This document shows, piece after piece, positions 3,061 to 26,731 of a stretch of DNA of 64,000 nt (position 1 is the first letter of the stretch; each line of letters opens with the position of its first letter). The stretch covers positions 1 through 64,000 of the forward strand of contig JAKRSH010000035.1 of the NCBI GenBank assembly GCA_022402465.1, written 5' to 3'. The stretch comes from Leptospiraceae bacterium. GTDB lineage: Bacteria > Spirochaetota > Leptospiria > Leptospirales > Leptospiraceae. The notes beneath the pieces are model-generated. The model saw nothing but the letters and a program-made list of their open reading frames with translations. It did no database searches and was not told the origin of the DNA. The position numbers and the translations under genes were made by a program.

Positions 3061-4602
3061 ATGGCTGAAAAAAAAACTAAAATTGTAGATAAAAAGCGAA
3101 TAGCAGTATGTGGCGGAACTCTCGGAAGAGAGGATAAATCCTATGTTCGAGGTCAGGTTGTTGATGTTGGGATTGATGATATTACAAAAGCAGAAGAGAT
3201 TTGGGATTTATTAACTGGATTATTTAAAGGCGAGGAGGAGGAAGTAACTCCTTTCTTAGATTTTAGTTTAGCTCCCGTTAGAAAGCCTCTCCTAAGAATT
3301 GAAGTCTATGATGATTCCGAAAAGCTGATGTATACTTCAGAGACGGTAGTTGCAGATGAAGATGGTTTCTTTTCTCATGAAATTTCTAAAACCCTTGCAC
3401 CAGGTAAATATATATTTGAAGTTAATTTAGAAGGCTTGGATTCCTACCGTCAGTTCTCTAAGGATTTAGCGAATAATCGCAGTAGTAAGAAAGATTCTGA
3501 AATTAAAAAAAATCCAGTTCTAGGTAGAGGAAGACTCAGAATCCTTCCGAATGATTATTCAAATTATGTTGTAACTTCTGATATAGACCAAACCTATTTG
3601 GCTACTGATATTGCCTCCAAGGCAGGGAAGCTTTCGGCACTTTTTGAATCCGCAGCTCAGAAACGTGCCCTACCAGGAATGCCTGAGTTGTATAGAAGGC
3701 TTCGTAAAGATTTAAAGGATGCTCCACTTATATTTATTTCTGCAAGTCCTCACTTTTTTAGAAGAACACTATTTGCTACTATCAAGAAACACAATATTGA
3801 ATTTGAATCCATACACCTTAAGTATTTAGAAGGAACCATCAAAGGAGTCTTAGATAAGATTATAGGAACAACTGTTAATCCTATCAATTTATTATCTGGT
3901 GGATTTAGATCTGCACTTATGAGAACGAGTAAGTTTCTAGGTGCTTCTTACCAATCTCTTTTCGATCAAATGGCTTATAAATTATCTATTCTCTTGCAAG
4001 CGCGGACTTATATGCCAACCCATACCAAAGAAATACTTTTGGGAGATAATACTGAGTCAGATTTTATGATTTTTACTCTATACCAATTGATTCTCTTACA
4101 AGATTGGGATGGAGATGAACTGGAAGAGTATTTGTATAAATTAAACTTTCTTGGACGAGATGCAATAACAAGAGATAATGCAAAAAGCATCCGAAAGATA
4201 GCAGAAATGAACTGGAAAATCCACGGCAAGATAAATCCTGTTCAAATAGCAATTATTAACAAAACAGATCATGGACCTGACGAAAAAGAAATGCTCACCA
4301 AAGTTATGTTAGCCCTTCCTGGCGGAGGAAAAAGGGCAGAACAAACCTTAGGCGGGAAAGTCCCATTTCAGGCATCTGAAGGAGCCTTAGGACTTTCCGT
4401 TTTACTTCATGCTGCGGGTTTTATGGAATTTGAGTCTATCTTTCAAGTGACTCTGACTATGGTGGGGGAATGGTTGGAAGGTAAAGTTATAGATGATAAA
4501 TATTTATATGAACTTTCGAAGAGACTCACAGCAACTCAGGTTTCCGCAAGCGAGAAGAGAAAATTTGTAGAAGAAGTCTTTGAAAGAATGATGAAACTAT
4601 AG
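3061..4602 (+). CDS. App1-like DUF2183 phosphatase-domain protein
   Basis: A 513-residue plus-strand protein divergent from the UbiD-family gene. The middle of the protein holds the App1 (phosphatidate phosphatase) catalytic-domain signature, an HAD-type DxDxT motif at D174, D176 and T178, followed by typical segments such as FISASP. The N-terminal part resembles a small beta-rich domain that precedes this domain in bacterial members. There is no signal peptide, so it is probably cytoplasmic. By family it may dephosphorylate phosphatidate or a related lipid or sugar phosphate, but the bacterial function is not established. A GAGG ribosome-binding site lies 7-10 bases before the ATG. It has no evident connection to the sugar genes. 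Confidence 0.8.
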   Translation: MAEKKTKIVDKKRIAVCGGTLGREDKSYVRGQVVDVGIDDITKAEEIWDLLTGLFKGEEEEVTPFLDFSLAPVRKPLLRIEVYDDSEKLMYTSETVVADEDGFFSHEISKTLAPGKYIFEVNLEGLDSYRQFSKDLANNRSSKKDSEIKKNPVLGRGRLRILPNDYSNYVVTSDIDQTYLATDIASKAGKLSALFESAAQKRALPGMPELYRRLRKDLKDAPLIFISASPHFFRRTLFATIKKHNIEFESIHLKYLEGTIKGVLDKIIGTTVNPINLLSGGFRSALMRTSKFLGASYQSLFDQMAYKLSILLQARTYMPTHTKEILLGDNTESDFMIFTLYQLILLQDWDGDELEEYLYKLNFLGRDAITRDNAKSIRKIAEMNWKIHGKINPVQIAIINKTDHGPDEKEMLTKVMLALPGGGKRAEQTLGGKVPFQASEGALGLSVLLHAAGFMEFESIFQVTLTMVGEWLEGKVIDDKYLYELSKRLTATQVSASEKRKFVEEVFERMMKL

Positions 4603-4627
4603 AATTTGCTTATATTGCTATTTAAGA

Positions 4628-4709
4628 ATCTTATGAATTATAAGATAAAAGTTCTTTACAAGTTTTTAAAATATAATACACTTTAACCAAAGTTAATTAA
4701 AATAGGAGA
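4628..4709 (+). promoter_or_regulatory. dps upstream region: inverted repeat, -10-like box and RBS
   Basis: A 7-bp inverted repeat (ATCTTAT, 5-base spacer, ATAAGAT; 4628-4646) lies before a TATAAT box at 4672-4677 and an AGGAGA ribosome-binding site at 4704-4709 ahead of dps. No good -35 hexamer is at the right spacing. Dps genes are often under Fur-family (PerR) or other stress regulators, so the repeat could be an operator. It is a poor match to the published PerR consensus and could be a weak hairpin ending the upstream gene. Confidence 0.3.
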
Positions 4710-4715
4710 TAAAAT

Positions 4716-5195
4716 ATGGTTCAGAAAATAAATATATCTATTCCAGAAAAAGAAAGAGAATTAATTGCAAATGGCTTAATGAAACTGCTAGCAGATACCT
4801 ACACGCTCTATCTGAAAACACATAATTTTCACTGGAATGTAACTGGTCCTATGTTCCAAACTTTACATATCATGTTTATGGAACAATACACAGAATTGTG
4901 GAATGCCATAGATTTGATTGCAGAGAGAATTCGCTCCCTGGGATATTTTGCCCCTGGATCTTACAAGGAATTCACAAAGCTTTCTTCGATTTCAGAAGAG
5001 GATTCCGTACCAAAAGCAAAGGACATGGTGAGAAATTTGGTATTGGGTCATGAAATGACAATCAAGACAGCTCGTGATATCATTCAACCTGCAGAGGCGG
5101 GAAATGATGAATCAACCTTGGACTTAGTTACCCAAAGACTCACCATTCATGAGAAAACAGCGTGGATGCTTAGATCCTTATTAGAAGAGGAGTAG
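4716..5195 (+). CDS. dps: Dps-family DNA-binding ferritin-like protein
   Basis: A 159-residue Dps. Members form dodecamers that oxidise iron with peroxide, store it, and often coat DNA under starvation or oxidative stress. The ferroxidase signature is visible: [10 protein letters not shown] near residues 36-45, with the iron-ligand His, then the helix with the D-x-x-A-E-R pattern (DLIAER). Length is normal for the family. A strong AGGAGA site lies 7 bases before the ATG. Its stop is 2 bases from the stop of the convergent glycosyltransferase at 5198, so the two genes meet tail to tail with no terminator between them. It is a housekeeping or stress gene and marks the left boundary of the minus-strand sugar gene run. 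Confidence 0.93.
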
Positions 5196-5197
5196 AT

Positions 5198-6190
5198 TCA
5201 AGAATTTTTATATTCTGATATATTCATTGTATAATCAATCACATAGAGTGGCCGGTCTTTGATTTCTTCATAGATTCGTGCCACATACTCACCCAAAATA
5301 CCAATACTAATTAGAATGAATCCACCTGTTAGGCAAATCAAACCAACGATAGTAGCCCACCCAGGATTATATATTATAGAATGATCAAAGAAAAAATGCT
5401 CTAACTTTCTATACACTGCATAAATTCCTATTGCAAAACCAAAAAAAGCAACAATAATACCAACAAATAAACTAAAACGAAGCGGTAGTGGTGAAAAAGA
5501 AATAGCTGCATTTGTTGCCAATGAAAGCATTTTACTAAGAGGATAATTTGTTACTCCTGCTACTCTAGGGCTTCTCTTGTATTCTACAGCTGTTTGAGGC
5601 AGTCCTATCCAGACAAACATACCTCTAAGGAACCTATGCTTTTCTCGGAGTTGATTGATTCGATGGAGGCATTTAGATGAGATTAAACGAAAATCACCAG
5701 AATCGACTGGAAGATTTTTATGAATGAATTTTCTCATTGCTCTGTAAAATATCCAAGCAGATGCTAATTTAAAGAAAGATTCCCCTTCTCTTTCGGTTCT
5801 CTTTCCATAGACTACATCATAGCCTTCTTCATATTTCTTTATCATTTCCAATATGACCTCTGGTGGATCTTGCAAATCAGCATCGATGATGACTATAGCA
5901 TCGCCTTTTGCAAAATCTAATCCAGCAGTAACCGCCATTTGGTGTCCAAAATTGCGAGAAAAACTAATTACCTTAATTGACTTATTTTTACTGGCAAGTT
6001 CCAATAGAAAGCTAAGAGTATTATCCCTACTTCCATCATTTATAAAGATTAATTCAACATTACATTTTAAACTTGCTAAGGTATTTGAAATTTCTTTCTG
6101 AAAAAAAGGAAGAGAGTTCTCCTCATTATAACAAGGAATTATAATACTAAGAAGTTTGGGATATTTTTTAGGTTTTAGTATGTAATTCAT
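5198..6190 (-). CDS. GT2 polyprenyl-phosphate glycosyltransferase with two C-terminal TM helices (GtrB/ArnC-like)
   Basis: A 330-residue family 2 glycosyltransferase. The N-terminal catalytic domain has the IIPCYNEE opening near residue 17 and the DxD metal and nucleotide site at D103-D105 (IIDADLQDPPE). The C-terminal 90 residues hold two strongly hydrophobic segments followed by GEYVARIYEEIKDRP, typical of DPM1/GtrB/ArnC enzymes that load a sugar onto undecaprenyl phosphate at the membrane inner face. Such lipid-linked sugars feed periplasmic GT-C transferases. It is the most downstream minus-strand gene of this block, separated by 132 bases from the next GT2. Sugar identity cannot be read from the sequence. 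Confidence 0.85.
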   Translation of the reverse strand: MNYILKPKKYPKLLSIIIPCYNEENSLPFFQKEISNTLASLKCNVELIFINDGSRDNTLSFLLELASKNKSIKVISFSRNFGHQMAVTAGLDFAKGDAIVIIDADLQDPPEVILEMIKKYEEGYDVVYGKRTEREGESFFKLASAWIFYRAMRKFIHKNLPVDSGDFRLISSKCLHRINQLREKHRFLRGMFVWIGLPQTAVEYKRSPRVAGVTNYPLSKMLSLATNAAISFSPLPLRFSLFVGIIVAFFGFAIGIYAVYRKLEHFFFDHSIIYNPGWATIVGLICLTGGFILISIGILGEYVARIYEEIKDRPLYVIDYTMNISEYKNS

Positions 6191-6322
6191 AAATGCTTAG
6201 TGTATCAATATTTACTATCTTAGTTAATAAATTGAATCAAAAATGTTCTAAAGACTCAATTTTTAATAAATAAAAATTTTAGGTTCCTCTATACAAGTTT
6301 AAAAGACATTACGTAAATTATC

Positions 6323-7135
6323 TTACAACCAATGACCTGAACCTGGAATGTATTTCTCAGGAATGGTAGGTTTAAAGAAAGATTTCTTCGATGCGATAAT
6401 ATTAAAATACAATATGTGACGTAGTGCAGCTACACCATCTTTCCAAGTAATCTTTTTCCCTTCTAAATAATTTCTTGGATAATAGGAAATTGGAAATTCT
6501 TTAACTCGAAGTCGCAATCGAGCAATTTTTGCAGTGACTTCTGGTTCAAATCCGAATCGATTGGATTGTAAATTGATGTTCTGTATTATATCCGCTTTAA
6601 AGATTTTATAGCATGTTTCCATATCAGAAAGATACATACCGGAAAATAAATTGCTAAGTAAGGTAAGTAGCCTATTGATCAAATAATGGAAGGTTCTATG
6701 AACTTGGTGGACTTCTTTACGAAATCTAGAACCAAATACTGCATCAGCCTTATCTTCTATCACAGGTTGTATAAGTCCAGGTAGCTCTTCCATATCGTAT
6801 TCAAAATCAGCATCTTGAACAACCATGATGTCTCCATGTGCCTGCTCGAATCCTCTGCGAAGGGCTGCTCCTTTACCTTGATTCTTTTCTTGATTCAGAA
6901 TTAAATGTTTCGATTGAAATTTAAAGGAATTTAATATTTGCAAGGAATCGTCTTTGGATGCATCATTGATGAATACTAATTCTTTATTTAAAGGTAATTT
7001 TAATTTATCAATTTTTTCTAAAAAAGACTTTAGATGTCCCGCTTCATTGTAAATGGGAATGATGAGAGATATGAGTTTGTAGGAAGACGAAGGTGATGGA
7101 ATGGCTTTGGATTGTTTCTTTGCAATTGCTTTCAT
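6323..7135 (-). CDS. Family 2 glycosyltransferase, DPM1-like, without TM domain
   Basis: A 270-residue GT2 enzyme. The fold begins with LISLIIPIYNEAG near residue 21 and the DxD site is D108-D110 (VVQDADFEYD). Unlike its neighbour at 5198 it lacks the two C-terminal membrane helices, so it resembles soluble dolichol-phosphate-mannose-synthase-like proteins that may still act on polyprenyl phosphate. It lies 182 bases downstream of rfbA on the same strand. The gap holds only AT-rich sequence with no clear hairpin. Donor and acceptor are unknown. Confidence 0.8.
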   Translation of the reverse strand: MKAIAKKQSKAIPSPSSSYKLISLIIPIYNEAGHLKSFLEKIDKLKLPLNKELVFINDASKDDSLQILNSFKFQSKHLILNQEKNQGKGAALRRGFEQAHGDIMVVQDADFEYDMEELPGLIQPVIEDKADAVFGSRFRKEVHQVHRTFHYLINRLLTLLSNLFSGMYLSDMETCYKIFKADIIQNINLQSNRFGFEPEVTAKIARLRLRVKEFPISYYPRNYLEGKKITWKDGVAALRHILYFNIIASKKSFFKPTIPEKYIPGSGHWL

Positions 7136-7317
7136 GGGTTTAATTTCTAAATTTTGTTTATTTATCGTTAATAGAGAAAATTAAAGATAAATTTGAATAG
7201 AATAATTCATATTCAAATTTAATCAATCTAAGGAAAGAAAAAAAATAATACATGAAATAAACATTTTTAAGAATAAAAGATATTATTTAAAATTATTTAA
7301 AATCAATTCAAGTAAAC

Positions 7318-8202
7318 TTAAAAAATAGTTTCATCAATAATTCGAAGCAGGTATTGTCCATAATTGTTTTTCTTTAATGGTTCGGCCAATTCCTTCAAGT
7401 CTTTTGCTGAAATGTATCCTTTTCGAAAGCAGATTTCTTCAGGACAAGCGATTTTTAATCCTTGCCTCCGTTCTACTGTTTCGACAAAGGCAGAAGCTTC
7501 TAATAGAGATTCATGAGTTCCTGTATCTAACCAAGCATAACCTCTACCCATGAGTTGAACGTCTAAGGTTCCTTTTTCTAAATAAATTTTATTTAGATCG
7601 GTTATTTCTAATTCACCCCTTGTAGAAGGTTTTACAGATTTGGCATATTCTACAACATTCTCGTCATAAAAATACAAGCCTGTTACCGCATACCGAGATT
7701 TTGGCTTAACAGGTTTTTCTTCTATAGAAATTGCTTTTTGTTTGCTATCAAATTCAACGACTCCATAACGCTCTGGATCATTTACGTGATAGGCTAAAAC
7801 AGTTGCTCCTGATGATTTTTGTACAGAGGTATGTAATAAATGATCCATACCATGACCATAGAAAACGTTGTCCCCCAAAACCAAAGAACAGGCTTCCCCA
7901 CCATTTAAAAATTTATCGCCAATCAGAAAAGCCTGAGCCAATCCATCAGGTGAGGGTTGTACAGCATATTCTAACCTTATGCCCCATTGAGATCCATCAC
8001 CTAACATATCCTTGAACAAAGGGATAGCCTCTGGTGTAGAAATTATCAAAATTTCTCGAATTCCAGATAACAGCAAGGTAGAAAGCGGATAGTATATCAT
8101 TGGCTTATCATAGATGGGAAGCAATTGTTTGCATATTACTTTTGTTACAGGATAAAGTCTTGTGCCCGACCCCCCTGCAAGTATAATACCTTTCTTAATC
8201 AT
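7318..8202 (-). CDS. rfbA: Glucose-1-phosphate thymidylyltransferase
   Basis: A 294-residue RmlA/RfbA that makes dTDP-glucose from dTTP and glucose-1-phosphate, the entry step of dTDP-deoxysugar synthesis. The signature [14 protein letters not shown] is near residues 8-21 and the family run [11 protein letters not shown] is also present. Length is normal. Its ATG shares one base with the rfbB stop codon (TAATG), so translation is probably coupled. It is the last gene of the rfbC-...-rfbB-rfbA block and the product feeds RfbB directly. Confidence 0.95.
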
Positions 8203-9257
8203 TATCCAATTCCTTTGTATTGTTGCTCATAATAAGATTGATAGGAACCAGAAAGAATCTCACTCCACCATTCTTTGTTGTTCATATACCAATCAACTGT
8301 TTCTTCTATTGCTTGTTCAAATGAGTATTTAGGTGTCCATCCAAGTTCTTTTTCTATTTTTGATGGATCTATAGCATAACGAAAATCATGTCCCGGTCTA
8401 TCCGTTACAAAGGTTATAAGTTTTTTATGAGGTGCACCTTGGGGATGCCTTAAATCCATTAAGTTGCAGATTAATTCTACTATTTCAAGATTATTCTTTT
8501 CGTTCCTTGTTCCAATATTATAGGTTTCACCAAATTTCCCTTTATGTATTGCTAAATCTATGGCCAAACAATGGTCTTTTACATAAAGCCAATCTCGAAT
8601 ATTTTCTCCTTTGCCATAAACAGGAAGTTGTTTACCTTGAAGACAATTAAGAATCATCAGAGGAATTAATTTTTCTGGAAAATGAAATGGTCCATAATTA
8701 TTAGAACAGTTGGTTGTAATTACAGGCATACCATATGTATGGAAATAGGACCTAACTAAATGGTCAGAACCAGCTTTGGATGCCGAATAAGGTGAATTAG
8801 GTGCATATGATGTTGATTCCGTAAATGCTCCATCAGCTCCCAATGAACCAAACACCTCATCTGTAGACACATGAAGAAATACATTAAGTTTTCCTTTTTC
8901 ATGTAGATTTCTACCAATCTCAAGCATATAAAATGTTCCTAAAACATTTGTCTTGACAAATTCTTCAGGACCAGTAATTGATCTGTCTACGTGAGATTCT
9001 GCAGCAAAATGAACTATTTCATTGAAATCTATTCCATTCAAAGCAAGAGAAAGTTCCTCTTTATTAGCAATATCTGCCTTAATAAAATGAAATCTTTTTT
9101 CATCTTTCCATTTAGCAAGATTTCGCAAATTACCTGCATAAGTTAATTTATCTAACACGATTACTTGAATATCTTCATAGGATTCTAATATTGTGTGAAC
9201 AAAATTAGAACCAATGAATCCAGCGCCACCGGTAATAAGAAGTTTACGTTGTGTCAT
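8202..9257 (-). CDS. rfbB: dTDP-glucose 4,6-dehydratase
   Basis: A 351-residue extended SDR that converts dTDP-glucose to dTDP-4-keto-6-deoxy-glucose. NAD-binding GGAGFIG is at residues 10-16, the dehydratase triad STDEVFG at 131-137 (T132, D133, E134), and the catalytic pair is Y157/K161 (YSASK). All key residues are present and length is normal. It overlaps rfbA by one base. Upstream on the same strand are a membrane GT-C-like gene and a small gene, not rfbD as is usual in these blocks. It therefore supplies the 4-keto intermediate for RfbC and possibly other enzymes. Confidence 0.95.
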
Positions 9258-9267
9258 TTGATTATTA

Positions 9268-10578
9268 TTAATTATTCCTTAAGAATATCTTTTGAATTGA
9301 AATATTAAAATTTTCATTTTTAAAATAAATTACAAATAAATACAAAATAGATGGTAAAAGGACTATATTGATTCTACTATACGCAGTTTTTAATAACCAA
9401 GAAATATCAAGGCTAAATAAAAAAATTAGGTTCAAAAAAAGAAACAATAAAAATAAGTAAATACTAGCAAATCTATGTATAACGTTGCGAGATAAAATAA
9501 TATTTATAATAAGTGATATTACTATCAGGCCTTTTAATTCTATAATGTGATAATTAAAGAATTTATTAAAAAGTAAAATTAAATAATCATTTTGAATTAA
9601 ATTAAAAAATAAAAAAGAGATGCCTTTAAATGTAAAATCAGACTCAAATGATTCGATATTTAAATATACGAAGTATTTCCAAAATAAAAAAAGAAAAAAA
9701 ATAAAAATTAATGTAATTAGATATTTAAAAAGTTTGTAACTTTTATTTGTTCTATTAAAATATATTAAAATTAAAATAAGTAAGAAAAGAAATATAACAG
9801 AGAACATGAATCCTTCATTTTTTAGCAATGATAAGAAAATTAAAATTAATGCAATCATATTCCAATTATTATCAATTAATTTCAATTCGGTAACTTTATT
9901 AAAATTAATATTATTACTAATAACATACAACAGTATAAGTAAACTCATTGATAGAATATGATCAGCGCACAATTCAGAAATAATTGAAAGATAATTAAAA
10001 TTTAAAGTTAAAATCAACAATAGAATAAAAATAAGCCAAGAATTAGTTTTATTTACGCTACTTACAAAAATAGATATAGTTATTATAAAAAAGAGAACAT
10101 TTAAAAAAAGAGGAATATTTTGATTCCAAGAACCCCAAATCAAAGAAAGAGAAGATATTAATGCAGGTAATGTAAACGGATAATCCATATGATGCCAATT
10201 TACATCGAATAGCTTCACAGTTGAATTAAATATAATATTTAATGAATTTGTTTTAGCTTTTAAATTCCACATTGACCAAGAATCCCACATACCATAAGGC
10301 TCTAAATTCCACTTTAAGAATAGAAAGTATATTCCTATGAATGAAAATAATAAAAAGAAAAATATTTTTATGAAATTCAGTGAATTATACCATTCCAGGT
10401 AAGATTCTTTGAACATAATTCTATATTTCTTTATGCTTATCAAATATGAAACTATCAGAATATACGGAATTAAACATTTTAATAAAAATTCATTTCTACT
10501 TAAAAAAGGAAATAGGATGAATACAATTTGAGGTATTAAAGAGTAATAAATTATATTTAAAAAAATAAAAATTATCAA
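9268..10578 (-). CDS. Polytopic membrane protein, GT-C glycosyltransferase-like
   Basis: A 436-residue protein made largely of hydrophobic segments (about ten membrane helices). After the first few helices a periplasmic loop carries GMWDSWSMWNLKAK and, further on, MDYPFTLPA; acidic and aromatic motifs in such a first large loop are typical of GT-C enzymes that use polyprenyl-phosphate sugars. I cannot assign a named family. The start appears to be TTG at 10578, overlapping the upstream stop as TTGA; there is no ATG before the first helix. It lies between rfbC and rfbB, where rfbD normally sits, and is coupled to the small gene upstream. Coding is very AT-rich compared with rfbB. Confidence 0.6.
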   Translation of the reverse strand: MIIFIFLNIIYYSLIPQIVFILFPFLSRNEFLLKCLIPYILIVSYLISIKKYRIMFKESYLEWYNSLNFIKIFFFLLFSFIGIYFLFLKWNLEPYGMWDSWSMWNLKAKTNSLNIIFNSTVKLFDVNWHHMDYPFTLPALISSLSLIWGSWNQNIPLFLNVLFFIITISIFVSSVNKTNSWLIFILLLILTLNFNYLSIISELCADHILSMSLLILLYVISNNINFNKVTELKLIDNNWNMIALILIFLSLLKNEGFMFSVIFLFLLILILIYFNRTNKSYKLFKYLITLIFIFFLFLFWKYFVYLNIESFESDFTFKGISFLFFNLIQNDYLILLFNKFFNYHIIELKGLIVISLIINIILSRNVIHRFASIYLFLLFLFLNLIFLFSLDISWLLKTAYSRINIVLLPSILYLFVIYFKNENFNISIQKIFLRNN

Positions 10579-11015
10579 TTTTTATAACCATATACATCAT
10601 AGTTTGTAGTTTTAAATAATAATTCATAGTTCAAAGGCATAGTAATCTTATATTTATTATATATAACACTTAAATGATTTTTATTATTGGTTAAAATCAT
10701 TGATGCATTCTTAGAATTATTAATATCATAATCTAATGGAGCGAATGCATATTGAATTAATAAGTTCATATTGCCTATAGCAGGATCTAATATTTCTGGA
10801 TAAATGTATAGTTTCATTTCTCTATTTTCGTTAATATTATATCTAATTTCATGTAATTCATTGAGTATCAAGGTTGGATTTTGCACCTTACCAATTAATG
10901 CGCTAAAATCTTTTTTATAAAATTTTATAGCTTGATTGTAAACTTTATATTGAGAATACACAATAAAAAACAAATAGATTAGAGACAAAGCAAATAAGGA
11001 TCTTTTAATATTCAT
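10575..11015 (-). CDS. Small single-pass membrane protein of unknown function
   Basis: I do not recognise this protein. From the ATG at 11015 it has 146 residues: a short basic N-terminus (MNIKR), one hydrophobic segment at about residues 5-20, then a soluble, probably periplasmic, domain of about 120 residues with no cysteines or obvious catalytic motif. An ATG at 11051 would overlap rfbC by 17 bases; 11015 is preferred because it puts the membrane segment at the N-terminus and clears rfbC. It is translationally coupled (4-base overlap) to the GT-C-like gene at 9268 and may be its partner, similar to the soluble C-terminal domains that some GT-C enzymes carry. Confidence 0.5.
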   Translation of the reverse strand: MNIKRSLFALSLIYLFFIVYSQYKVYNQAIKFYKKDFSALIGKVQNPTLILNELHEIRYNINENREMKLYIYPEILDPAIGNMNLLIQYAFAPLDYDINNSKNASMILTNNKNHLSVIYNKYKITMPLNYELLFKTTNYDVYGYKN

Positions 11016-11034: not shown

Positions 11035-11583
11035 TTAAAATGGACTTTCAAAATCTTTCCATTTTGGAAGAATCTTATCCTTGGGAGAGATAATACAGTC
11101 TTTGGAAGGAAGACCCCAATTGATTGCTAAATCTATATCATCAAATAAAATTCCTCCTTCACTTTCTTTCGAATATTCATTTGTAACTTTATAAAGAAAC
11201 TCTGTATCATCCTCTAAAGTTAGAAAGCCATGAGCAAAACCAGATGGAACCCAAAAGATTTCATGATTCTCTTCGGTGAGAACAACAGAAATATGTTGTC
11301 CATATGTTTTGGAATTCTTGCGAATATCCACTGCAACATCTAATACTGAACCTCTCGTTACTCTTACTAATTTACCCTGATCCATAGGAGGGGCTTGGTA
11401 GTGTAAACCACGGAGAACATTCTTAGCAGATTTGGAATGATTGTCTTGTCGAAATAGCTCAGGGATCCCAAGATCTTTGTATGTAGATGACTTAAAAGAT
11501 TCCATAAAGAATCCACGGGAATCCCCATGCACTTGAGGAAGGATTAATACAGGACCAGAAATTGGGAAAGTTTGGATGTTCAT
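11035..11583 (-). CDS. rfbC: dTDP-4-dehydrorhamnose 3,5-epimerase
   Basis: A 182-residue cupin-fold RmlC that epimerises C3 and C5 of dTDP-4-keto-6-deoxy-glucose to give dTDP-4-keto-L-rhamnose. The signature RGLHYQ contains the catalytic His61, and the later YKVTNEY segment (131-137) covers the tyrosine region of the active site. Length is normal. It is the first gene of the minus-strand dTDP-sugar block, with a 187-base region upstream shared with the divergent glycosyltransferase at 11771. No RfbD reductase follows it, so the final reduction must be encoded elsewhere or done by another enzyme. Confidence 0.93.
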   Translation of the reverse strand: MNIQTFPISGPVLILPQVHGDSRGFFMESFKSSTYKDLGIPELFRQDNHSKSAKNVLRGLHYQAPPMDQGKLVRVTRGSVLDVAVDIRKNSKTYGQHISVVLTEENHEIFWVPSGFAHGFLTLEDDTEFLYKVTNEYSKESEGGILFDDIDLAINWGLPSKDCIISPKDKILPKWKDFESPF

Positions 11584-11770: not shown

Positions 11771-12562
11771 ATGGAAGTGAAACTCAAAATTTGTATTGTG
11801 GTTTATAATCACAGTTTCGATATCATAAAAACTAATATAGAGTCTATTCTTAAGCAAGAAATTACCTGCGTAATTATAATAGTAGATCATTCCCCTAATG
11901 ACTTTCTTGAATCAATCATTAGAAAAACTTATGATTCTAATGTTGTGCAATTTTATTCAAGAAGCAAATTTAATAAAGGTTATGGTGCAGGTAATAATTT
12001 TGGTTTCACTCAAGGAAAGTTAAGTGATTATTATCTAGTTTTGAACCCTGATGTAGTCTTACTACCTGGAGTTTTGACTAGTCTTATTGCAACATTAGAA
12101 AATAATCCAAAAATAGGTTTAAGCTTTCCTAAGGTTCTGAATGAAGATGGAACGATACAATACAACATCAAAAGAAAGCCCACACTATTTGCATTATTAG
12201 GTAGGAGATTTTCTGTAATAAGTAAATTGAATTTTATAAAGCAAGCTATGGATTCTTACGAATTCAGAGATTTTGATTATGAGAAAGATTCGATAGTAGA
12301 GTATGTTGGGGGTTGTTTTATGCTCTTCCCATCTAAAGTTTATCATGAGTTGAATGGTTTTGATGATAACTATTTTATGTATTTTGAAGATTATGATTTG
12401 TGTAATAAATTAAGATCAAGAGGACTTCTAATCCAATATTTATCTAAGGTTTCTATAATTCACTCATGGCAGAGAGGTTCTCATAAATCAATTAAGCTTT
12501 TCTCCATCTTTGTTAAAAGCATGATTCGATTTTTCTGGAAATGGGGCTTGAAATGGTATTAG
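11771..12562 (+). CDS. Family 2 glycosyltransferase, WbbL/rhamnosyltransferase-like
   Basis: A 263-residue GT2 on the plus strand, opposite to nearly all the locus. It opens with KICIVVYNHSFD, carries the NPDV motif in place of a classical DxD (LVLNPDVVLLPG), and then the segment GGCFMLFPSKVYHELNGFD followed by MYFEDYDLC. This arrangement is typical of dTDP-rhamnosyl and related transferases of the WbbL type, which transfer a sugar to the lipid-linked glycan in the cytoplasm. It is divergent from rfbC across 187 bases and overlaps or abuts the next plus-strand GT2. Its neighbours and family suggest a rhamnose or other dTDP-sugar donor. Confidence 0.75.
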   Translation: MEVKLKICIVVYNHSFDIIKTNIESILKQEITCVIIIVDHSPNDFLESIIRKTYDSNVVQFYSRSKFNKGYGAGNNFGFTQGKLSDYYLVLNPDVVLLPGVLTSLIATLENNPKIGLSFPKVLNEDGTIQYNIKRKPTLFALLGRRFSVISKLNFIKQAMDSYEFRDFDYEKDSIVEYVGGCFMLFPSKVYHELNGFDDNYFMYFEDYDLCNKLRSRGLLIQYLSKVSIIHSWQRGSHKSIKLFSIFVKSMIRFFWKWGLKWY

Positions 12563-13473
12563 GAATAATTGTAAGTTTTTATCCCAATACAAATGAATTA
12601 TTAGAGTCTCTAATTTCTTTAAATGGGGAAATTGATGAAATATGTTTGGTAGAAAATGGAAGTCCGATAAATATTCAAAATAAAATTAAAGATATTATTC
12701 AAAAAGAAAAAAAGAGAATCCCTTCTATAAAATGGATACAAATGGAATCCAATATAGGATTAGCTGCGGCACAAAATATAGCATTAGAATATGGCTTAAA
12801 AAAGAAATTTGATTTTTACTTGTTATTAGATGATGATTCTATACTACAAAAAGGCTCAGTAGCAAATTTACAAGAATATCTTATAGAAAATCCTAAGATT
12901 GGTCTAGTTGGTTCTGATATTAAACATCAAGGTTCCAACCGAACACAGAAATATCCAATTATTTCATCTAATGGTTGGATCTATAGAAAATATATAAACA
13001 TTAATGAAACTTCTTTGACTGATGTGTCTACCGTTATAGCATCTGGTAGTTTAATAAGATCGAATTGTTTAAAATCGACAGGCCTTATGAGGGCTGCTTA
13101 CTTTATTGATTATATAGACATTGAATTTTGTTTGAGAATAAGATCTTTAGGATGGAAAATTGCTGTAATTAAAAATTCAATAATTTATCATAAATTAGGT
13201 GAAGAGAAAGAAATCAATTTATCTTTAGGTAAAATTTATCCTACCAATCATAGCCCTCTGAGAAGATATTACATGACCAGAAATAGAATTTGGACTTGGA
13301 AATTATATGCTTTTACTTTTCCGAAATGGTTCATTTATGACTTTATCAATTTTTGCTTCGATATTGTACGATTCAGTATATTTGATCAAGAAAAATTAAG
13401 TAAATGGAAAATGTTCAGTAAGGGGATTATAGATGGAATATTAAAAAAGGAAGAAAGAAATTATATTTCTTAA
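12553..13473 (+). CDS. Family 2 glycosyltransferase, rhamnosyltransferase type
   Basis: A 306-residue GT2 with the features of bacterial rhamnosyltransferases: IIVSFYPN at the N-terminus, SNIGLAAAQN, the metal site LLLDDDS, VIASGSLI, and FIDYIDIEFCLR near the middle, with YYMTRNRIW toward the C-terminus. ATGs at 12541 and 12553 are both possible; 12553 gives the usual short lead-in to the first beta strand and has a GGGG stretch upstream. It forms a two-gene plus-strand unit with the preceding GT2, and its 3' end overlaps the convergent minus-strand GT2 by 33 bases. The donor is inferred to be dTDP-rhamnose or a related sugar. Confidence 0.8.
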   Translation: MVLGIIVSFYPNTNELLESLISLNGEIDEICLVENGSPINIQNKIKDIIQKEKKRIPSIKWIQMESNIGLAAAQNIALEYGLKKKFDFYLLLDDDSILQKGSVANLQEYLIENPKIGLVGSDIKHQGSNRTQKYPIISSNGWIYRKYININETSLTDVSTVIASGSLIRSNCLKSTGLMRAAYFIDYIDIEFCLRIRSLGWKIAVIKNSIIYHKLGEEKEINLSLGKIYPTNHSPLRRYYMTRNRIWTWKLYAFTFPKWFIYDFINFCFDIVRFSIFDQEKLSKWKMFSKGIIDGILKKEERNYIS

Positions 13474-19466: not shown

Positions 19467-21383
19467 TTATGGAATTTTTATTAAGAAATTACCATCTGTT
19501 CTTTCTAAAATAATACCATTTTTAATTATATATTCATCAAGCTGAATTAGATTATATAATCTAATTTTATCAGTATAATAAGAATCCTTTAGCCAATCTT
19601 TACGCCATGAAGTTGTAAGTTTATTAGTAATCCAGTAATTCTTAGAATTATTTCTCAAAATAGCCAGATCGGCCTGAATATCATCTGTGAGACCAAGATC
19701 CAATGAATAAGAATCTGATAAATTTTGATAGTCTTGATAATAACGTAAACCGTTTAATTGAAAAGGATAGACCGTATTTTTAGTAGATATTCCTCTTTGA
19801 TTCATAAATATTGCAGGTTCATAGTCATGTATATTTTTAAGATATTCTATATTGCCATTCGATGAAAAGTAAGATAAAATAGATTTAATTTTATTAAATT
19901 GATTCTGATATATAAAAAAAATAAGTAATAAAATTATTCCATGTTTTACATATTTATATTTACTTAAGTAACTAGAAGATAAGAAAAGGGAAGGAAATAT
20001 TGACAATATTAAAAAAGACGAAAGTATATACCGAGTCTGATGTGATCCGAAAAGGAAATTAAAACTGAAAGTTAAGAACAAAAATAATAGTCCCAATATG
20101 AATAGTTTCTTATACAAAATTTGTTTAAATAATAAAAATGTAATAAAAATAAAAAAAACACCTAATTCTATAGACTGATAATTTACATTTTCAATGAGAT
20201 CGTTAAATGTTTCTAACTTATAAGCTTCAAAATTTCCTGAAAATATTCTCAGCGGTAGTAAGAAATAAGAGGATAAAGTCTTAGTAAACGTAAACGAGTT
20301 TAAATTAGATATAGTTAACTGAAAGTAATCTAACTCAGACATTCCTTGGTGGCCAAAATAAAAAGGCCAAAAAGGATTCTTTAAATACAATAAATTCTTA
20401 CCATAATAAAGAAGAGGAAGTAAACTAAATAAAAATAAAGAATTTAAATCTTTAAACTTAAACTCTTTCAGTCTTATTCTTTCTTTGAAAATTATAAATA
20501 AAGATAAAAATACTAAAATAAAAGAAGTAGCCAGAGAAGTATATTTTATTGATACCGCAAATAGTAAGAAATTGATCATCCAAATTAAATAAAAAATATC
20601 CTTCCTAATCCAAAATAAATATAAAAAATATAATGCTAATATTTCGAGTGTACTGTTCCCAAAGTCAATATAACAAGATGCAGCATATTCTAAAGATATC
20701 CAATGATTTAATAAAAATATTACAGGGAGAATCCAAATACTTTTAAACCTATAATTGTTACTTAAATTAGAAACAAAAATTAATAAAATAAATAAAAATA
20801 TAAAGTGGAAAAACTTTGGCAAAAAATAATCCTTAGATAAGATATATCCAAACCAAAATAGAACATCTAAACCTTTAGGTAATGCATTATAAAAACTAAA
20901 ATTATTTGAAAATGAAATCTTCCTATTCGGCATTAATGGTAAATGATAAGCTAAAGCATCCCAAGTGATTTCAGGGAGAGATAACATGATTAAGTAATAA
21001 ATAAAGAACGGAATTAAAAGAATAAATAAGTAGTATTTTTTGAATAAACCAAAAATGGAATATTTATAAATAAATAAATTCTGAAAATAAGTTCTAAATT
21101 TAAAAATTTCAATTCTAATTTCTAAAGATATTGTAATTGATGATATTAATATAATAATTGCGACAGTTTGAATATTTAACTCATAAAAAAAATAAAAAAT
21201 AGTAATCAAGAGAGAAATAAAATATATTCCTGTTATAATATAAATACATGAATAAAATTTATATAAAATTTTACCTTCTAGACTAATTTGAAAGATTCTT
21301 AATACAGAAAATCCAAGAGCATACAAAAAAATACATAAGCCTATAAAATAAAATAGATTAAAGAATACGTTTAAAATGAACAT
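19467..21383 (-). CDS. GT-C-like polytopic membrane glycosyltransferase
   Basis: A 638-residue protein with about 12 hydrophobic segments. The first large external loop contains ITWDALAYHLPLMP, matching the acidic first-loop motif (W-D-x-x-x-YH) of bacterial GT-C enzymes. The C-terminal about 110 residues are soluble and probably periplasmic. It likely transfers a sugar from the lipid carrier made by the adjacent DPM1-like protein to the growing or finished O-antigen. The exact family is unknown. Codon use is extremely AT-rich. Confidence 0.65.
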   Translation of the reverse strand: MFILNVFFNLFYFIGLCIFLYALGFSVLRIFQISLEGKILYKFYSCIYIITGIYFISLLITIFYFFYELNIQTVAIIILISSITISLEIRIEIFKFRTYFQNLFIYKYSIFGLFKKYYLFILLIPFFIYYLIMLSLPEITWDALAYHLPLMPNRKISFSNNFSFYNALPKGLDVLFWFGYILSKDYFLPKFFHFIFLFILLIFVSNLSNNYRFKSIWILPVIFLLNHWISLEYAASCYIDFGNSTLEILALYFLYLFWIRKDIFYLIWMINFLLFAVSIKYTSLATSFILVFLSLFIIFKERIRLKEFKFKDLNSLFLFSLLPLLYYGKNLLYLKNPFWPFYFGHQGMSELDYFQLTISNLNSFTFTKTLSSYFLLPLRIFSGNFEAYKLETFNDLIENVNYQSIELGVFFIFITFLLFKQILYKKLFILGLLFLFLTFSFNFLFGSHQTRYILSSFLILSIFPSLFLSSSYLSKYKYVKHGIILLLIFFIYQNQFNKIKSILSYFSSNGNIEYLKNIHDYEPAIFMNQRGISTKNTVYPFQLNGLRYYQDYQNLSDSYSLDLGLTDDIQADLAILRNNSKNYWITNKLTTSWRKDWLKDSYYTDKIRLYNLIQLDEYIIKNGIILERTDGNFLIKIP

Positions 21384-21483
21384 ATTGTGTGGAATTAAAT
21401 TTTTAAGAAAGATATAAAAAAGATTAAATAAGCACTAATACGGAATTTGGATAATATCTAATTTTAATTTTTATAAATATAAA

Positions 21484-21927
21484 TCAAAAAGGAACAACTA
21501 ATATTTGCCTTATTTTACAGACATTCATCTGGTTAAAATCTTCTTTAATAGAAGGACTAAATATGACAATTTCACATTCTTCATTTTGCAATTTAGATTT
21601 ATCGAAGGGTAAAATTCCATACTCTTGAGAGCCATTTTCCGAAAAGGTTCTCATTGAATTTAAAAGAATATTAAAAAGTGAATTTGTAGAATTCTTATTA
21701 GTAACTAAGAGGAAGCTATCTTGATTAATATTATAGAAATTTAAGAAACGTTTAAAAGACAATAAAGGTTCTAAATCCCAACCCCGATTAATATATATTA
21801 TTCTGTTTGGTTTATTCTTTAAGGAAGTGTAGTTTTTTATAAAATTAAAAAATCTATTAGTCCTCTGAAAGTTTTCTTTTGAACTGATCTTTAAGTTTGA
21901 AAAATTAGAAGTTAAGGCATTTTTTTT
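21484..21927 (-). pseudogene. Start-less C-terminal fragment, probably of a GT-C-type protein
   Basis: An open frame of 147 codons plus stop runs from just inside a stop at 21928-21930 down to 21484 with no ATG or GTG; the only internal start is a TTG at 21762. The translated segment includes NRIIYINRGWDLEPL and ends in a soluble domain, similar in style to the periplasmic C-terminal domain of the neighbouring membrane protein at 23610. The frame begins within a few bases of a decayed IS30-family transposase on the other strand. The simplest reading is that the 5' part, with the membrane helices, was lost through insertion and deletion. A short TTG-started protein is possible but unlikely. 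Confidence 0.5.
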
Positions 21928-22150
21928 CTAATCCTTCTTCTTTTGGAGCAAAAGCTATAAATGAAAAAACTAAGGGTTTGATTCGAAAATATTTTCCCAA
22001 AAATAGAGATTTTCCAAAACTTATGGAAAAGGAAATTGAAAAGGTCGAAAATACATTATACAATAGACCTTGAGAAAAATTAAGGTTTTAAAACTCATAA
22101 TATAGTCTTTTGGAGAATGATCTGAATCGTTGCAATTATTGTTTGATTCT
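21924..22150 (+). mobile_element. IS30-family transposase C-terminal remnant
   Basis: Plus-strand translation shows the end of an IS30-type DDE transposase: NEKTKGLIRKYFPKNRDF, then EIEKVENTLYNRP. This matches the well-known NENTNGLIRQYFPKGTDF...LNNRPRK pattern of the family. In-frame stops interrupt it right after NRP, and weak similarity continues to about 22150 (ENDLNRC). The N-terminal and DDE parts and the left end are missing, so it is a dead remnant. No clean terminal inverted repeat was found. It sits between two GT-C genes and adjoins the truncated ORF 21484-21927. Confidence 0.7.
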
Positions 22151-22170
22151 GTACATCATTAAAGTTATAA

Positions 22171-23646
22171 TCAAATTTTAAAAATTGAAAAATGTTCATT
22201 TTTATAAACATTTTTTTTGGATTTTAAAAACTCTAACGTCTCAGTAGGATAATCAAAATATTTATAATAAACAAAATATTTCGCAGATGAATTCATTAAA
22301 TATTTTTTGGAGGTTACCATTATAGAACATCTATCAGTAAAAAAAGTTAAAACTCTTGGTTTATAAAATATAATAATATCTTCTTTCTGAGTATTTTTAT
22401 TTATAAAATCATAAGTGAGTTGAGAATATACAGAATTTGAATAAACACCTTCAAAATAATTTTCTTTTATAAAAAATTTATTAAAAATGTTTAATATATT
22501 AATGGCGATATTAAAAGTAAGGAAAAGAAAAATTAGTCCATTAAAAATATATTTATATTTAAAATTTAGTTTGTTTAAAGATTTAATAATAAAATACATA
22601 AAAAATGGTAATATTGAAATAATAAATCTAAGACCTTGTAGAGGAGGGTAAACTAAATATAATGATAATGTTAAAATAAAATAAATGATAAAAATATATT
22701 CTTTTTTAAAATTATCAATTACACCATATAAAAATAATAATATTCCAATAACAAAGAGAAAGTTTGAAATAATATGATCCCCTGTGTAAAAACTTTTAAT
22801 TATTTCATAATAATACGGTAAATTTACTTTTATTGTATTTATAGAATCAGAAAGAAGATTATGATTTTGTGAATAATCGCTTTTAAGAAATAAATTATCA
22901 AAAATATGATTTAATAATAAAGAAATTAATACTGAAAATGATAGATTCAGAACAGATTTAATATTCTTATTTTTAATTGAATTAATTAAAACAAAAAAGA
23001 TTAAAATATATAAAATTATTGATGCTGTTCTAGTATTAATTGAAGCTGATAGGAAAACTGTCAGAATTAATGAAATAAATATTTTTATTTTTCGACACTT
23101 CTCTAATAATGTAATTAAATATAAACAAAAAAGATTTAATGATGCTGAAATAATATCAGAGAGAATGTTTTGATTAAATTCTGTAATGAAACTAGATGAA
23201 GCAAAAAATGAAATTATTAAGAATAAATTCAATTTTGATATTTTCTTGAAAAACAATAAATATATGGATATATAAAATAAAAAAGAATATAAAAAATTAC
23301 ATATTTTCAATGAATAAATTAGATTGTTTGATAAAAATTGACCCGGTAATAGAAGTATAGGAAACATCCAAGGATAATAATTTGGACCAACTTGATGTTC
23401 AGATCTTAATAATCGAATATCACTACACTTAGATAATAAATCGAAATTCATATTCTTTAAAGATATAGATTGAGAAATATAATATGAAAAATCTCCTCCC
23501 CAATTATGAAATTCATGTATTAGTAAAAATTGAAATATAAGTATGATAATAATAATCAAAAACAAAAGTATATCAAAAATAAATGATTTTTTGCTCATTA
23601 CTAAATTTTTCAATACGGAACTTGTGTGATTTCTTGTTTTCGACAT
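22171..23646 (-). CDS. GT-C-like polytopic membrane glycosyltransferase
   Basis: A 491-residue membrane protein with about 11 hydrophobic segments. The first external loop has GGDFSYYISQ, followed by YYPWMFPILLLPG, both features of GT-C/ArnT-like transferases in which an acidic residue of the first loop is catalytic. The start is an ATG at 23646, overlapping the upstream gene by 37 bases; an in-frame ATG at 23598, 11 bases after the upstream stop and closer to the first helix, is an equal candidate. Neither has a clear ribosome-binding site. It belongs to the side-branch module with the GT2 at 25218. Confidence 0.6.
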   Translation of the reverse strand: MSKTRNHTSSVLKNLVMSKKSFIFDILLFLIIIIILIFQFLLIHEFHNWGGDFSYYISQSISLKNMNFDLLSKCSDIRLLRSEHQVGPNYYPWMFPILLLPGQFLSNNLIYSLKICNFLYSFLFYISIYLLFFKKISKLNLFLIISFFASSSFITEFNQNILSDIISASLNLFCLYLITLLEKCRKIKIFISLILTVFLSASINTRTASIILYILIFFVLINSIKNKNIKSVLNLSFSVLISLLLNHIFDNLFLKSDYSQNHNLLSDSINTIKVNLPYYYEIIKSFYTGDHIISNFLFVIGILLFLYGVIDNFKKEYIFIIYFILTLSLYLVYPPLQGLRFIISILPFFMYFIIKSLNKLNFKYKYIFNGLIFLFLTFNIAINILNIFNKFFIKENYFEGVYSNSVYSQLTYDFINKNTQKEDIIIFYKPRVLTFFTDRCSIMVTSKKYLMNSSAKYFVYYKYFDYPTETLEFLKSKKNVYKNEHFSIFKI

Positions 23647-25217
23647 AAATTAGTAATCTTACTCTTTATGTACTCTTGATTATTGAAATGTAGAACCTTA
23701 CAATCTTGAAGTTTTAATTTTGATAGTTCAAATTTAGTAAGTTTAGTTAGATTATTTCCATTTACAGAAAGATTATTCATATAATTAACTAACCCATTTT
23801 CCCAATTATTCTTACCGGAGTCTATAGCCATATAGATTGATTTATTATTATAAATATTATAAAAATTTATATAAGTTATTAAAGAGTCAACATGTTCAAA
23901 TTCCATTACATTGCTATAAACTATTATTAAATATTTTTCTTTAGGTAAATACTGTAAATCCTTAATAAAATTAGTAAACTTTTGAGTATTTATTGAATTA
24001 TAATTAGAAGTTTTATGTATCTTTTCGATAGTCTCAAAGCAAATAAAGTAATTAGCAATAAGAATTAAAAAAATTGGAACAAAATATTTTATAGCTAAAC
24101 GATATTTATACTTAAAATTAAATAGATATCTATTTATAGTTAAACCGAATATTATTATTATTATATAGAAACACAATATTCCAGGATAATCATACCGATT
24201 GTTGTTTGGGAAAATTCCATTATAAAATAAAATATTAAAAACTAAATAAATAAAGCTTAAAATCATAATATAAATTTTAATATATAGGTTATGTGACCTA
24301 ACTATCTTAAGAAATATTGTTGAAATTAAAAGAATTAGGATAGAAATAATAACATAATAATTTAATAGACTACTTTTTAATAGAATCAATCTTTCATTAA
24401 GCTCTACTGAATTTCCATAAATATCTGTTCTTCCCTTAGATAAAGATAATAATATACTACTTGCTATTAGTAATGAATATATAACTGGAATTATTAAAAC
24501 AATCCAATGTTTTAATTTATTAACTTTAAAATTTAATATGATAAGTATAAAAGGAAAAATTGCGAAGGGAAGAAAATTTTCCTTAGAACCCATAGCTATA
24601 ATCGAACCCAGAGAAATTCCGATATAATAATAAAATAATTTTAATTTCTTTCGATTATAAAGATAATAAGAAATCAGTATTATGGAAGTCCCAAGTATGC
24701 AATAAACTTCTCCTGCACCCAATCGAGAAAAAATATCAGAAAAGTAATTATCTGATAATATCACAATAGGTATTAATAATGATAAAGTAAAATTAAAATA
24801 TCGTTTAATCAATAATGAAATTGAAAAAAGAAAGAATATACAAACGAAGATTCTAAATCCATACCAAAGAATTGGAAGATCGAACCATAAAAATGTTTCA
24901 AGGATTCTAAAAAAATAATAGCTAGGTCTATACCTTGGATAAGTTCCAAATTGCCCTACTTCTGTTTGATTAATTAAGATATTTATAAATTCAGAAAATG
25001 GTCTTATTTCTAGATTATTTCCTAAAAATCGAAAAGTTTCATGGTCGTCAATTAACCACCATTTTGCATTAAGATTCTGTCCGAATAAATATAGTGTAAA
25101 TATGGAGAATACGATTAGTGAGCCGTATGATCCATATTTCTTGATGAAAAGTTTAAATCTCAATTCTGCAAAAAAAATAAACAAACTTATTGAAAATAAA
25201 ATAAAATTATAAATCAT
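23610..25217 (-). CDS. GT-C-like membrane protein with soluble C-terminal domain
   Basis: A 535-residue protein: about 11 membrane segments, then a soluble C-terminal domain of about 150 residues. The first external loop contains WLIDDHETFRF, with paired acidic residues as in GT-C active sites, and later RYRPSYYFFR. The C-terminal domain resembles the orphan fragment at 21484. It starts 1 base from the stop of the GT2 at 25218, so is coupled to the probable donor-making enzyme. Function is inferred as periplasmic sugar transfer; substrate unknown. Confidence 0.6.
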   Translation of the reverse strand: MIYNFILFSISLFIFFAELRFKLFIKKYGSYGSLIVFSIFTLYLFGQNLNAKWWLIDDHETFRFLGNNLEIRPFSEFINILINQTEVGQFGTYPRYRPSYYFFRILETFLWFDLPILWYGFRIFVCIFFLFSISLLIKRYFNFTLSLLIPIVILSDNYFSDIFSRLGAGEVYCILGTSIILISYYLYNRKKLKLFYYYIGISLGSIIAMGSKENFLPFAIFPFILIILNFKVNKLKHWIVLIIPVIYSLLIASSILLSLSKGRTDIYGNSVELNERLILLKSSLLNYYVIISILILLISTIFLKIVRSHNLYIKIYIMILSFIYLVFNILFYNGIFPNNNRYDYPGILCFYIIIIIFGLTINRYLFNFKYKYRLAIKYFVPIFLILIANYFICFETIEKIHKTSNYNSINTQKFTNFIKDLQYLPKEKYLIIVYSNVMEFEHVDSLITYINFYNIYNNKSIYMAIDSGKNNWENGLVNYMNNLSVNGNNLTKLTKFELSKLKLQDCKVLHFNNQEYIKSKITNLCRKQEITQVPY

Positions 25218-26185: not shown

Positions 26186-26731
26186 TTAAATTCTCGGAAT
26201 CAATTTCAATTCATCTAAGCGTATTGCCATAGCAGACGTGCTTACTTCATATTTTTTGGCTAGCAATTCGATTCCGTCATCCTTATTCCAGTAATCCAGA
26301 TTTAAGCTTCCATTAATAAATAAATAGTTCTTCAACCAGTGTTCTGGCATGAGAAGTTCTGCAGCAAAACGGTTGGCTTCTCTTTCTTTTTTAGTATCTT
26401 CTTTATCTGTTTTATTCTTACGAAACAGTATTTTATTGTCTATGTGAATACCCGTAGCTACATGCTGGAGGCAAAAATGCCCTATCTCATGAGCTAAAGT
26501 AAATCGTTGCCTAGAAGCAGAATGTCCGGAATTTACTAAAATCAATGCATTCGATAAATCCCTAAGATCTAAGGCACCTGAGACCTCATCTGGAAGTGCG
26601 TGATACTTGACTTGAATCTTTAAAAATTCTGCAATTTTCATCAAATCAACAGGATCGGATGTAATATTCGCATGATTAAGCAACTCGCTTACCTTGGTTT
26701 GAATTGTATTATTGGTTAAGCTTCTTCTCAT
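26186..26731 (-). CDS. ImmA/IrrE-family metallopeptidase
   Basis: A 181-residue protein with the zinc-peptidase motif HEIGH at H81-H85 inside FTLAHEIGHFCLQH, and a downstream acidic residue in the helix with NRFAAELLMP. ImmA/IrrE peptidases cleave XRE-type repressors or act as toxin-like partners. The gene overlaps the XRE gene upstream by four bases (ATGA), the normal pairing. It probably regulates its own operon or acts as a two-gene stress or addiction module. It is intact. Confidence 0.85.
   Translation of the reverse strand: MRRSLTNNTIQTKVSELLNHANITSDPVDLMKIAEFLKIQVKYHALPDEVSGALDLRDLSNALILVNSGHSASRQRFTLAHEIGHFCLQHVATGIHIDNKILFRKNKTDKEDTKKEREANRFAAELLMPEHWLKNYLFINGSLNLDYWNKDDGIELLAKKYEVSTSAMAIRLDELKLIPRI

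Follow-up and report, generated by a model that had tools for sequence, protein, structure and literature searches.

What has become of the terminal reductase of dTDP-L-rhamnose synthesis in this Leptospiraceae bacterium, and what might the two membrane proteins encoded in its usual place do? The window, the whole 64,000-nt stretch of DNA analysed here, carries on its minus strand rfbC, a small ORF, a polytopic ORF, rfbB, rfbA and two genes for GT2 glycosyltransferases, in this order (Table 1). A first-pass annotation had described RfbC, RfbB and RfbA as intact and rfbD as absent from its usual position, with two membrane-protein genes there instead. Both descriptions hold: the three Rfb proteins all exceed their NCBIfam cut-offs, and exactly two ORFs, which overlap by TTGA, fill the interval between RfbB and RfbC. 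The spacers of only 10 nt to rfbB and 19 nt to rfbC rule out an rfbD remnant, and a family scan found no RmlD above the TIGR01214 cut-off within the window.

Table 1. Features of the rfb block and its GT2 genes, with coordinates in the window.
Feature	Position	Strand	Basis
RfbC (RmlC), dTDP-4-dehydrorhamnose 3,5-epimerase	11035..11583	-	TIGR01221 220.5 bits, cut-off 155.75
Small bitopic partner	10575..11015	-	matches no Pfam/NCBIfam family; homologues adjoin GT-C-like homologues
Polytopic GT-C-like protein	9268..10578	-	matches no Pfam/NCBIfam family; 12 TM segments
RfbB (RmlB), dTDP-glucose 4,6-dehydratase	8202..9257	-	TIGR01181 481.5 bits, cut-off 365.1
RfbA (RmlA), glucose-1-phosphate thymidylyltransferase	7318..8202	-	TIGR01207 501.8 bits, cut-off 360.65
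DPM1-like GT2, no TM segments	6323..7135	-	PF00535 97.3 bits
GtrB/PgfS/ArnC-type GT2, two C-terminal TM segments	5198..6190	-	NF047588 268.6 bits, below cut-off 500
Rhamnosyltransferase-like GT2	12541..13473	+	TIGR01556 173.4 bits, positions 1-281 of 281, below cut-off 200.55

The glycan locus also holds a Peptidase_M78 (IrrE-like) protein (26186-26731) and a MaoC-like protein (48130-48531).

Location of the RmlD reductase

The genome (3,990,365 bases in 45 contigs, 100% complete) encodes a single protein above the TIGR01214 cut-off, at C29:101957-102838, which scores 315 bits against a cut-off of 224.05 and matches positions 1-282 of 285. Among proteins of solved structure it comes closest to RmlDs (1vl0, phmmer E 1.9e-61), and its YGLSK stretch, corresponding to the catalytic YxxxK motif of SDR enzymes, aligns to YGKTK of 1vl0. 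The gene shares the contig of the window and lies about 90 kb from rfbC. The genome-wide search for RfbD that the first-pass annotation had proposed thus ends on the same contig: loss of RfbD from the genome is ruled out, and the suggestion that a reductase is encoded elsewhere is borne out. Because RmlD is encoded elsewhere on the contig, there is no call for another end product, and the alternative suggestion of a pathway ending in a different dTDP-sugar becomes needless. As judged from homology, RmlA, RmlB and RmlC together with this RmlD make up a complete predicted route to dTDP-L-rhamnose, in which RmlD is displaced rather than missing, and the rhamnosyltransferase-like GT2 of the window is a possible user of its product. 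The same locus contains a second RmlD-like SDR (C29:94197-95069, L010:10197-11069), which at 155 bits stays under the TIGR01214 cut-off and may make another deoxysugar.

The rfb locus of pathogenic Leptospira has fcl at one end and rfbC, rfbD, rfbB and rfbA at the other, as described in PMC10958091, and the rfbC-rfbD-rfbB-rfbA order is also given in PMC9736851. In the present genome the gene at L010:16190-17146, fcl-like by eye and by blastp labels, not by a family scan, sits 0.8 kb from RmlD. Compared with the Leptospira layout, both ends of the rfb locus are therefore recognisable, with rfbC, rfbB and rfbA keeping their order at one of them and fcl near the other, yet here the pair of membrane proteins takes the place of rfbD and RmlD lies at the fcl end.

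Among relatives, RmlC occurs in seven of the eight genomes of the family, and RmlD above its cut-off in 7/8 genomes of the family and 9/30 of the order. RmlD adjoins RmlC only in G003 (L046), G017 (L096, order C, D, B) and G018 (L093, order A, C, D, B); in G002, G004, G005, G006 and G007 it lies on another contig, none being seen in the surroundings of rfbA-rfbC. With the present genome (G000) counted, RmlD is apart from RmlC in six of the seven RmlC-bearing family genomes. The RmlC tree (support 97/96) and the RmlA tree (97/95) join G000 with G003 and G017. The RmlD tree instead groups G003 with G017 (90/91) and then with five others, at moderate support (84/91), leaving G000 outside, its placement relative to G018 not settled. 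Because the RmlC and RmlA trees join G000 with genomes in which rmlC and rmlD adjoin, whereas the RmlD tree does not, we infer that the rmlD beside rmlC was replaced in G000: on this phylogenetic evidence, an rmlD once next to rmlC has likely been lost here, with a differently related RmlD now in use.

A polytopic protein and its small upstream partner

The polytopic protein has 436 residues from a TTG start, its TM segments being counted by hydropathy, and residues G96, D99, W101, W104, Y133, A205 and G256 are invariant in its alignment (A5). Like the protein itself, nine scanned homologues gave no Pfam match above cut-off, one of them having two sub-threshold chance matches, and a profile search against PDB sequences found no GT-C, its one chance match being presenilin (E 0.1). 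A GT-C identity is thus unsupported by sequence in the Pfam scans and the PDB search. AlphaFold2 models were built from six sequences, and that of the polytopic protein is poor (pLDDT 47); Foldseek returned nothing for it at E <= 0.001. Its structural matches include ALG3 at Z 7.7 (rmsd 7.1, 268 aligned) and the unrelated SMG7 at Z 7.9, while PIGU, AftA, AglB, an oligosaccharyltransferase subunit and EmbC match at Z 5.4-6.7; unrelated chains score level with all these GT-C structures, and by the search tool's own caution such Z values may be meaningless. The model leans towards a GT-C fold. The first-pass label "GT-C-like" is accordingly plausible and agrees with the genomic context, although neither the sequence nor a confident model shows the fold.

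The small protein measures 146 residues from its ATG, or 158 from an upstream TTG, and consists of an N-terminal TM segment followed by about 110 residues predicted to lie outside. Its AlphaFold2 model (pLDDT 53) shows an N-terminal helix and then an alpha/beta part, and the fold is uninformative, the best structural match (Z 5.5) being to unrelated chains. The protein carries a [YF]x[LFM]xP motif in the form YAFAP. This motif, fixed after viewing on eight aligned small proteins, recurs in four of seven further small proteins that had also been seen beforehand (expected 0.42, P = 3e-4), one of the four, YKFYP in L119, being differently placed within its protein. Used by itself as a query, a profile built from four small proteins matches beside the GT-C-like homologue in G011 and G008. 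For the more distant small proteins, profile homology is mostly not significant: among six compared with their own shuffles, only L066 beats all of them and L117 is marginal, while L071, L064, L065 and the C-terminus of L119 do not rise above theirs.

What ties the two proteins together is their gene order. Searched alone, the polytopic protein has relatives in 3/8 genomes of the family, this one included, and its profile finds relatives in 9/30 genomes of the order and 12/392 of the phylum; a scan across named genomes yielded five loci, of which a Leptospiraceae MAG holds two and Bacteroidetes 47-18, an Elusimicrobia MAG and a Mucilaginibacter MAG have one apiece. A protein of the one-TM type is encoded directly upstream of the polytopic homologue in 12 of 15 loci, against 2 of 28 control polytopic ORFs. 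The rule was mechanical: the ORF directly upstream had to lie on the same strand, encode 100-235 aa and show one or two hydrophobic segments; the controls were other polytopic ORFs from the same stretches, and any ORF whose start fell within 600 nt of a stretch end was skipped. The 15-locus count omits L072 of G017 for its internal stops and L073 of G003 for its position at a contig end, both of which enter the 17-locus count of supply genes below. The three misses are variants of the arrangement: in L117 the upstream ORF (199 aa) has four segments, in L119 the upstream gene joins a GT2 to a TM segment plus outer domain, and in L118 a 140-aa ORF with YYLTP is present at 1237-1659 and the rule fails since the start of the GT-C-like ORF is set too far upstream. 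In 8 of the 15 loci the gap from the small ORF to the GT-C-like homologue is exactly -4 nt. By this conserved neighbourhood the two proteins are a predicted conserved pair, kept together in distant bacteria, a pairing that the first-pass annotation missed; no paper was recognised as describing it in the literature searched, a scope that left subscription journals largely outside. Three GT-C-like homologues, in the genomes G006 (C161), G002 and G017 and at the loci L040:6580-7644, L039:6999-8117 and L072, look decayed, with stops inside the homologous stretch, and it seems that the pair decays often, or that these are draft errors.

Donor-supply genes beside the pair

A donor-supply gene lies nearby in 8 of the 17 loci (the window, L040/L063, L068, L070, L071, L073, L117 and L119), a count in which L068, L070 and L071 are not fully independent because they belong to one genus (g9). 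No such gene was seen near L038, L039, L067, L069, L064, L065 and L066, whose neighbours are partly annotated. GtrA, in a Pfam scan of chosen neighbours, adjoins or is near the pair in L063, L068 and L070. A DPM1-like profile run on the 17 loci (E <= 1e-10) reaches E < 1e-80 only in the window, L071, L073 and L119, and picks up a weak GT2 in L117 (E 1.1e-11).

Several of these neighbourhoods are compact. In L071 (G012), a GtrA domain fused to a methyltransferase domain (L071:3578-4738) stands ahead of a DPM1-like GT2, the small protein and the GT-C-like homologue, all in one overlapping run. In L073 (G003), a GT2 that is 67% identical to the window's 6323-7135 protein starts 88 nt after the GT-C-like gene. 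In L119 (G053), a single ORF (6815-7933) directly before the GT-C-like homologue joins a DPM1-like GT2, 45% identical to the 6323-7135 protein over 227 aa, to a TM segment and a further domain, which would be outside if the GT2 part is cytosolic, as expected of an enzyme using nucleotide sugars. In L117 (G214), one run (3935-7982) comprises a UbiA protein, an ArnF-like SMR protein, a HAD protein, the four-segment small protein and the GT-C-like homologue. The first three pass Pfam cut-offs, their NCBIfam scores staying below cut-off save for one general HAD model, and the closest NCBIfam models of the UbiA protein are decaprenyl-phosphate phosphoribosyltransferases; this run is likely a pentofuranose variant of the pair's system. 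No GtrA was found on the window's contig, and the genome's only GtrA domain belongs to a GT2-GtrA protein on C17 (L120:1741-5903), flanked by polytopic proteins of 490 and 473 aa.

Proposed role of the pair and relation to known systems

Our preferred reading, which we hold to be fairly probable as a joint claim, is that dTDP-L-rhamnose synthesis is completed by the displaced RmlD and that the pair is a GT-C-like transferase with a dedicated subunit. Outside the inner membrane, the pair probably transfers a lipid-carried sugar to a surface polysaccharide. A cytosolic DPM1-like GT2, probably the 6323-7135 protein, would load the sugar onto undecaprenyl phosphate, a flippase would turn the loaded carrier outward, and the GT-C-like enzyme would move the sugar to the O-polysaccharide or another acceptor on the periplasmic side; the bitopic protein would act as the dedicated subunit of this enzyme, its outward domain positioning acceptor or donor. 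By homology, the 6323-7135 GT2 is likely a cytosolic polyprenyl-phosphate-sugar synthase that supplies the pair, and the 5198-6190 GT2 is a candidate alternative donor synthase. We put forward more tentatively, as a possibility open to real doubt, that the bitopic protein is a dedicated subunit of an unrecognised GT-C clan, and that the two genes form a module, present in several phyla, which docks onto whichever supply module is available (DPM1-like GT2, GtrA or UbiA/ArnF-like pentofuranose) and, outside the membrane, links the delivery of the donor with the selection of the acceptor.

The main rival, which we consider unlikely, is that the small protein anchors the soluble DPM1-like synthase to the membrane, or activates it, rather than being a GT-C subunit. 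Dpm2 and Dpm3 are anchor or activator proteins of their GT2 partner, and an anchor would suit a 6323-7135 GT2 devoid of TM segments, the fusion of a TM segment and an outer domain to such a GT2 in L119, and the overlapping order GT2, small protein, GT-C-like homologue in L071. The GacI/GacJ/GacL system of Streptococcus pyogenes, as outlined in parts of PMC8035078, likewise includes a small membrane protein in a GT-C glycosylation system, and there GacJ helps GacI; yet GacJ has three TM segments and serves a GT2, whereas the small protein of the pair has one TM segment plus an outer domain and is encoded beside the GT-C-like gene. The constant neighbour of the small protein is the GT-C-like homologue, strong DPM1-like matches being confined to 4 of the 17 loci. 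Moreover, the supply enzyme of L117 is likely a UbiA-type membrane protein, and an anchor would have no need of a conserved outer domain some 100 aa long.

It is improbable that the pair is unrelated mobile cargo that was inserted into the rfb block and plays no part in O-antigen. The pair does occur near a PAS-domain/GGDEF-like protein and an ArsR-like regulator (named by eye) in L062, and near a metallo-beta-lactamase-fold protein and a DNA methylase in L039, but in G017 it lies behind rfbA and two GT2s, one of which resembles the window's 11771-12562 by eye, and donor-supply genes are found at 8 or more of the 17 loci. Base composition also speaks against recent arrival. The pair was described in the first-pass annotation as very AT-rich, which its GC contents of 20.3% and 22.4% confirm against 33-37% for rfbA, rfbB and rfbC, and the contrast was taken to suggest a later insertion. 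That argument fails: the low GC is confined to codon positions 1 and 2, GC3 is 0.192 and 0.190 in the pair and 0.190 in rfbB, and GC at fourfold sites (22/136 in the pair, 69/336 in rfbA/B/C) does not differ significantly (Fisher p = 0.30). Because GC3 and fourfold sites match the neighbours, the AT contrast reflects the amino-acid composition of membrane proteins, not a newcomer, and AT content gives no evidence of a later insertion. Other polytopic genes of the locus, at 19467-25217, are equally AT-rich (19-23% GC). They encode three polytopic proteins (19467-21383, 22171-23646 and 23610-25217) with no Pfam match, possibly further GT-C or Wzy-type proteins. The first-pass reading therefore stands in part: a reductase is encoded elsewhere, the insertion inferred from AT content falls, and replacement of rfbD is still likely, on the evidence of the trees.

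That the large protein polymerises O-antigen, as Wzy does, or ligates it, and is not a polyprenyl-phosphate-sugar-dependent transferase, we regard as quite improbable; it is polytopic, belongs to an O-antigen locus and matches no family, but several relatives lie outside O-antigen loci, and relatives stand beside GtrA, DPM1-like or UbiA/ArnF-like donor genes, which neither Wzy nor WaaL needs. Very improbable is a pathway ending in another dTDP-sugar, such as dTDP-6-deoxy-L-talose, with no L-rhamnose made, for the lack of rfbD in the block and the sub-cut-off SDR, which could give a different product, are set against a full-strength RmlD in the genome and a rhamnosyltransferase-like GT2 in the window.

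Our preferred reading, a GT-C-like transferase with a dedicated subunit, can be compared with known multi-component glycosylation systems. Like the Gtr-type three-component systems (GtrA/GtrB/Gtr*, CsbB/GtcA/YfhO) treated in parts of PMC8035078, L071 groups a synthase, a GtrA-type flippase and a polytopic transferase; unlike the systems described there, the polytopic protein of the pair matches no Pfam or NCBIfam family and has a bitopic partner. As to the components of such systems, a putative synthase, by homology only, is present as the DPM1-like GT2 of the window and is adjacent or fused in L071, L073 and L119, while for the flippase, which in such systems is of GtrA, SMR or Wzx type, candidates near the pair are GtrA in L063, L068, L070 and L071 and the ArnF-like protein in L117. 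Transferases of these systems have 8-13 TM helices and a (modified) DxD in an outer loop; the polytopic protein has 12 by hydropathy and an invariant D99-x-W101 rather than DxD. In the Citrobacter youngae pentofuranose system, as presented in parts of PMC11127046, a polyprenyl phosphoribose synthase and a flippase serve a GT136 GT-C, and L117 resembles it in having UbiA-type, HAD phosphatase-like and SMR flippase-like genes before the GT-C-like gene. By that account, however, the Citrobacter flippase belongs to the MATE family whereas the candidate in L117 is SMR-like, and the Citrobacter GT-C has a carbohydrate-binding domain of its own, whereas the pair's loci encode a separate protein before the GT-C-like homologue.

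The puzzle of the missing rfbD is thereby solved, with an ordinary outcome, and it is the pair in its place that carries wider meaning. Kept across phyla and sometimes beside a complete donor pathway, the pair would name proteins covered by no Pfam or NCBIfam model. The review PMC8035078 raises, as a speculation, the possibility that small GT-Cs depend on a second protein to recognise the acceptor, and the bitopic protein is a candidate for such a partner.
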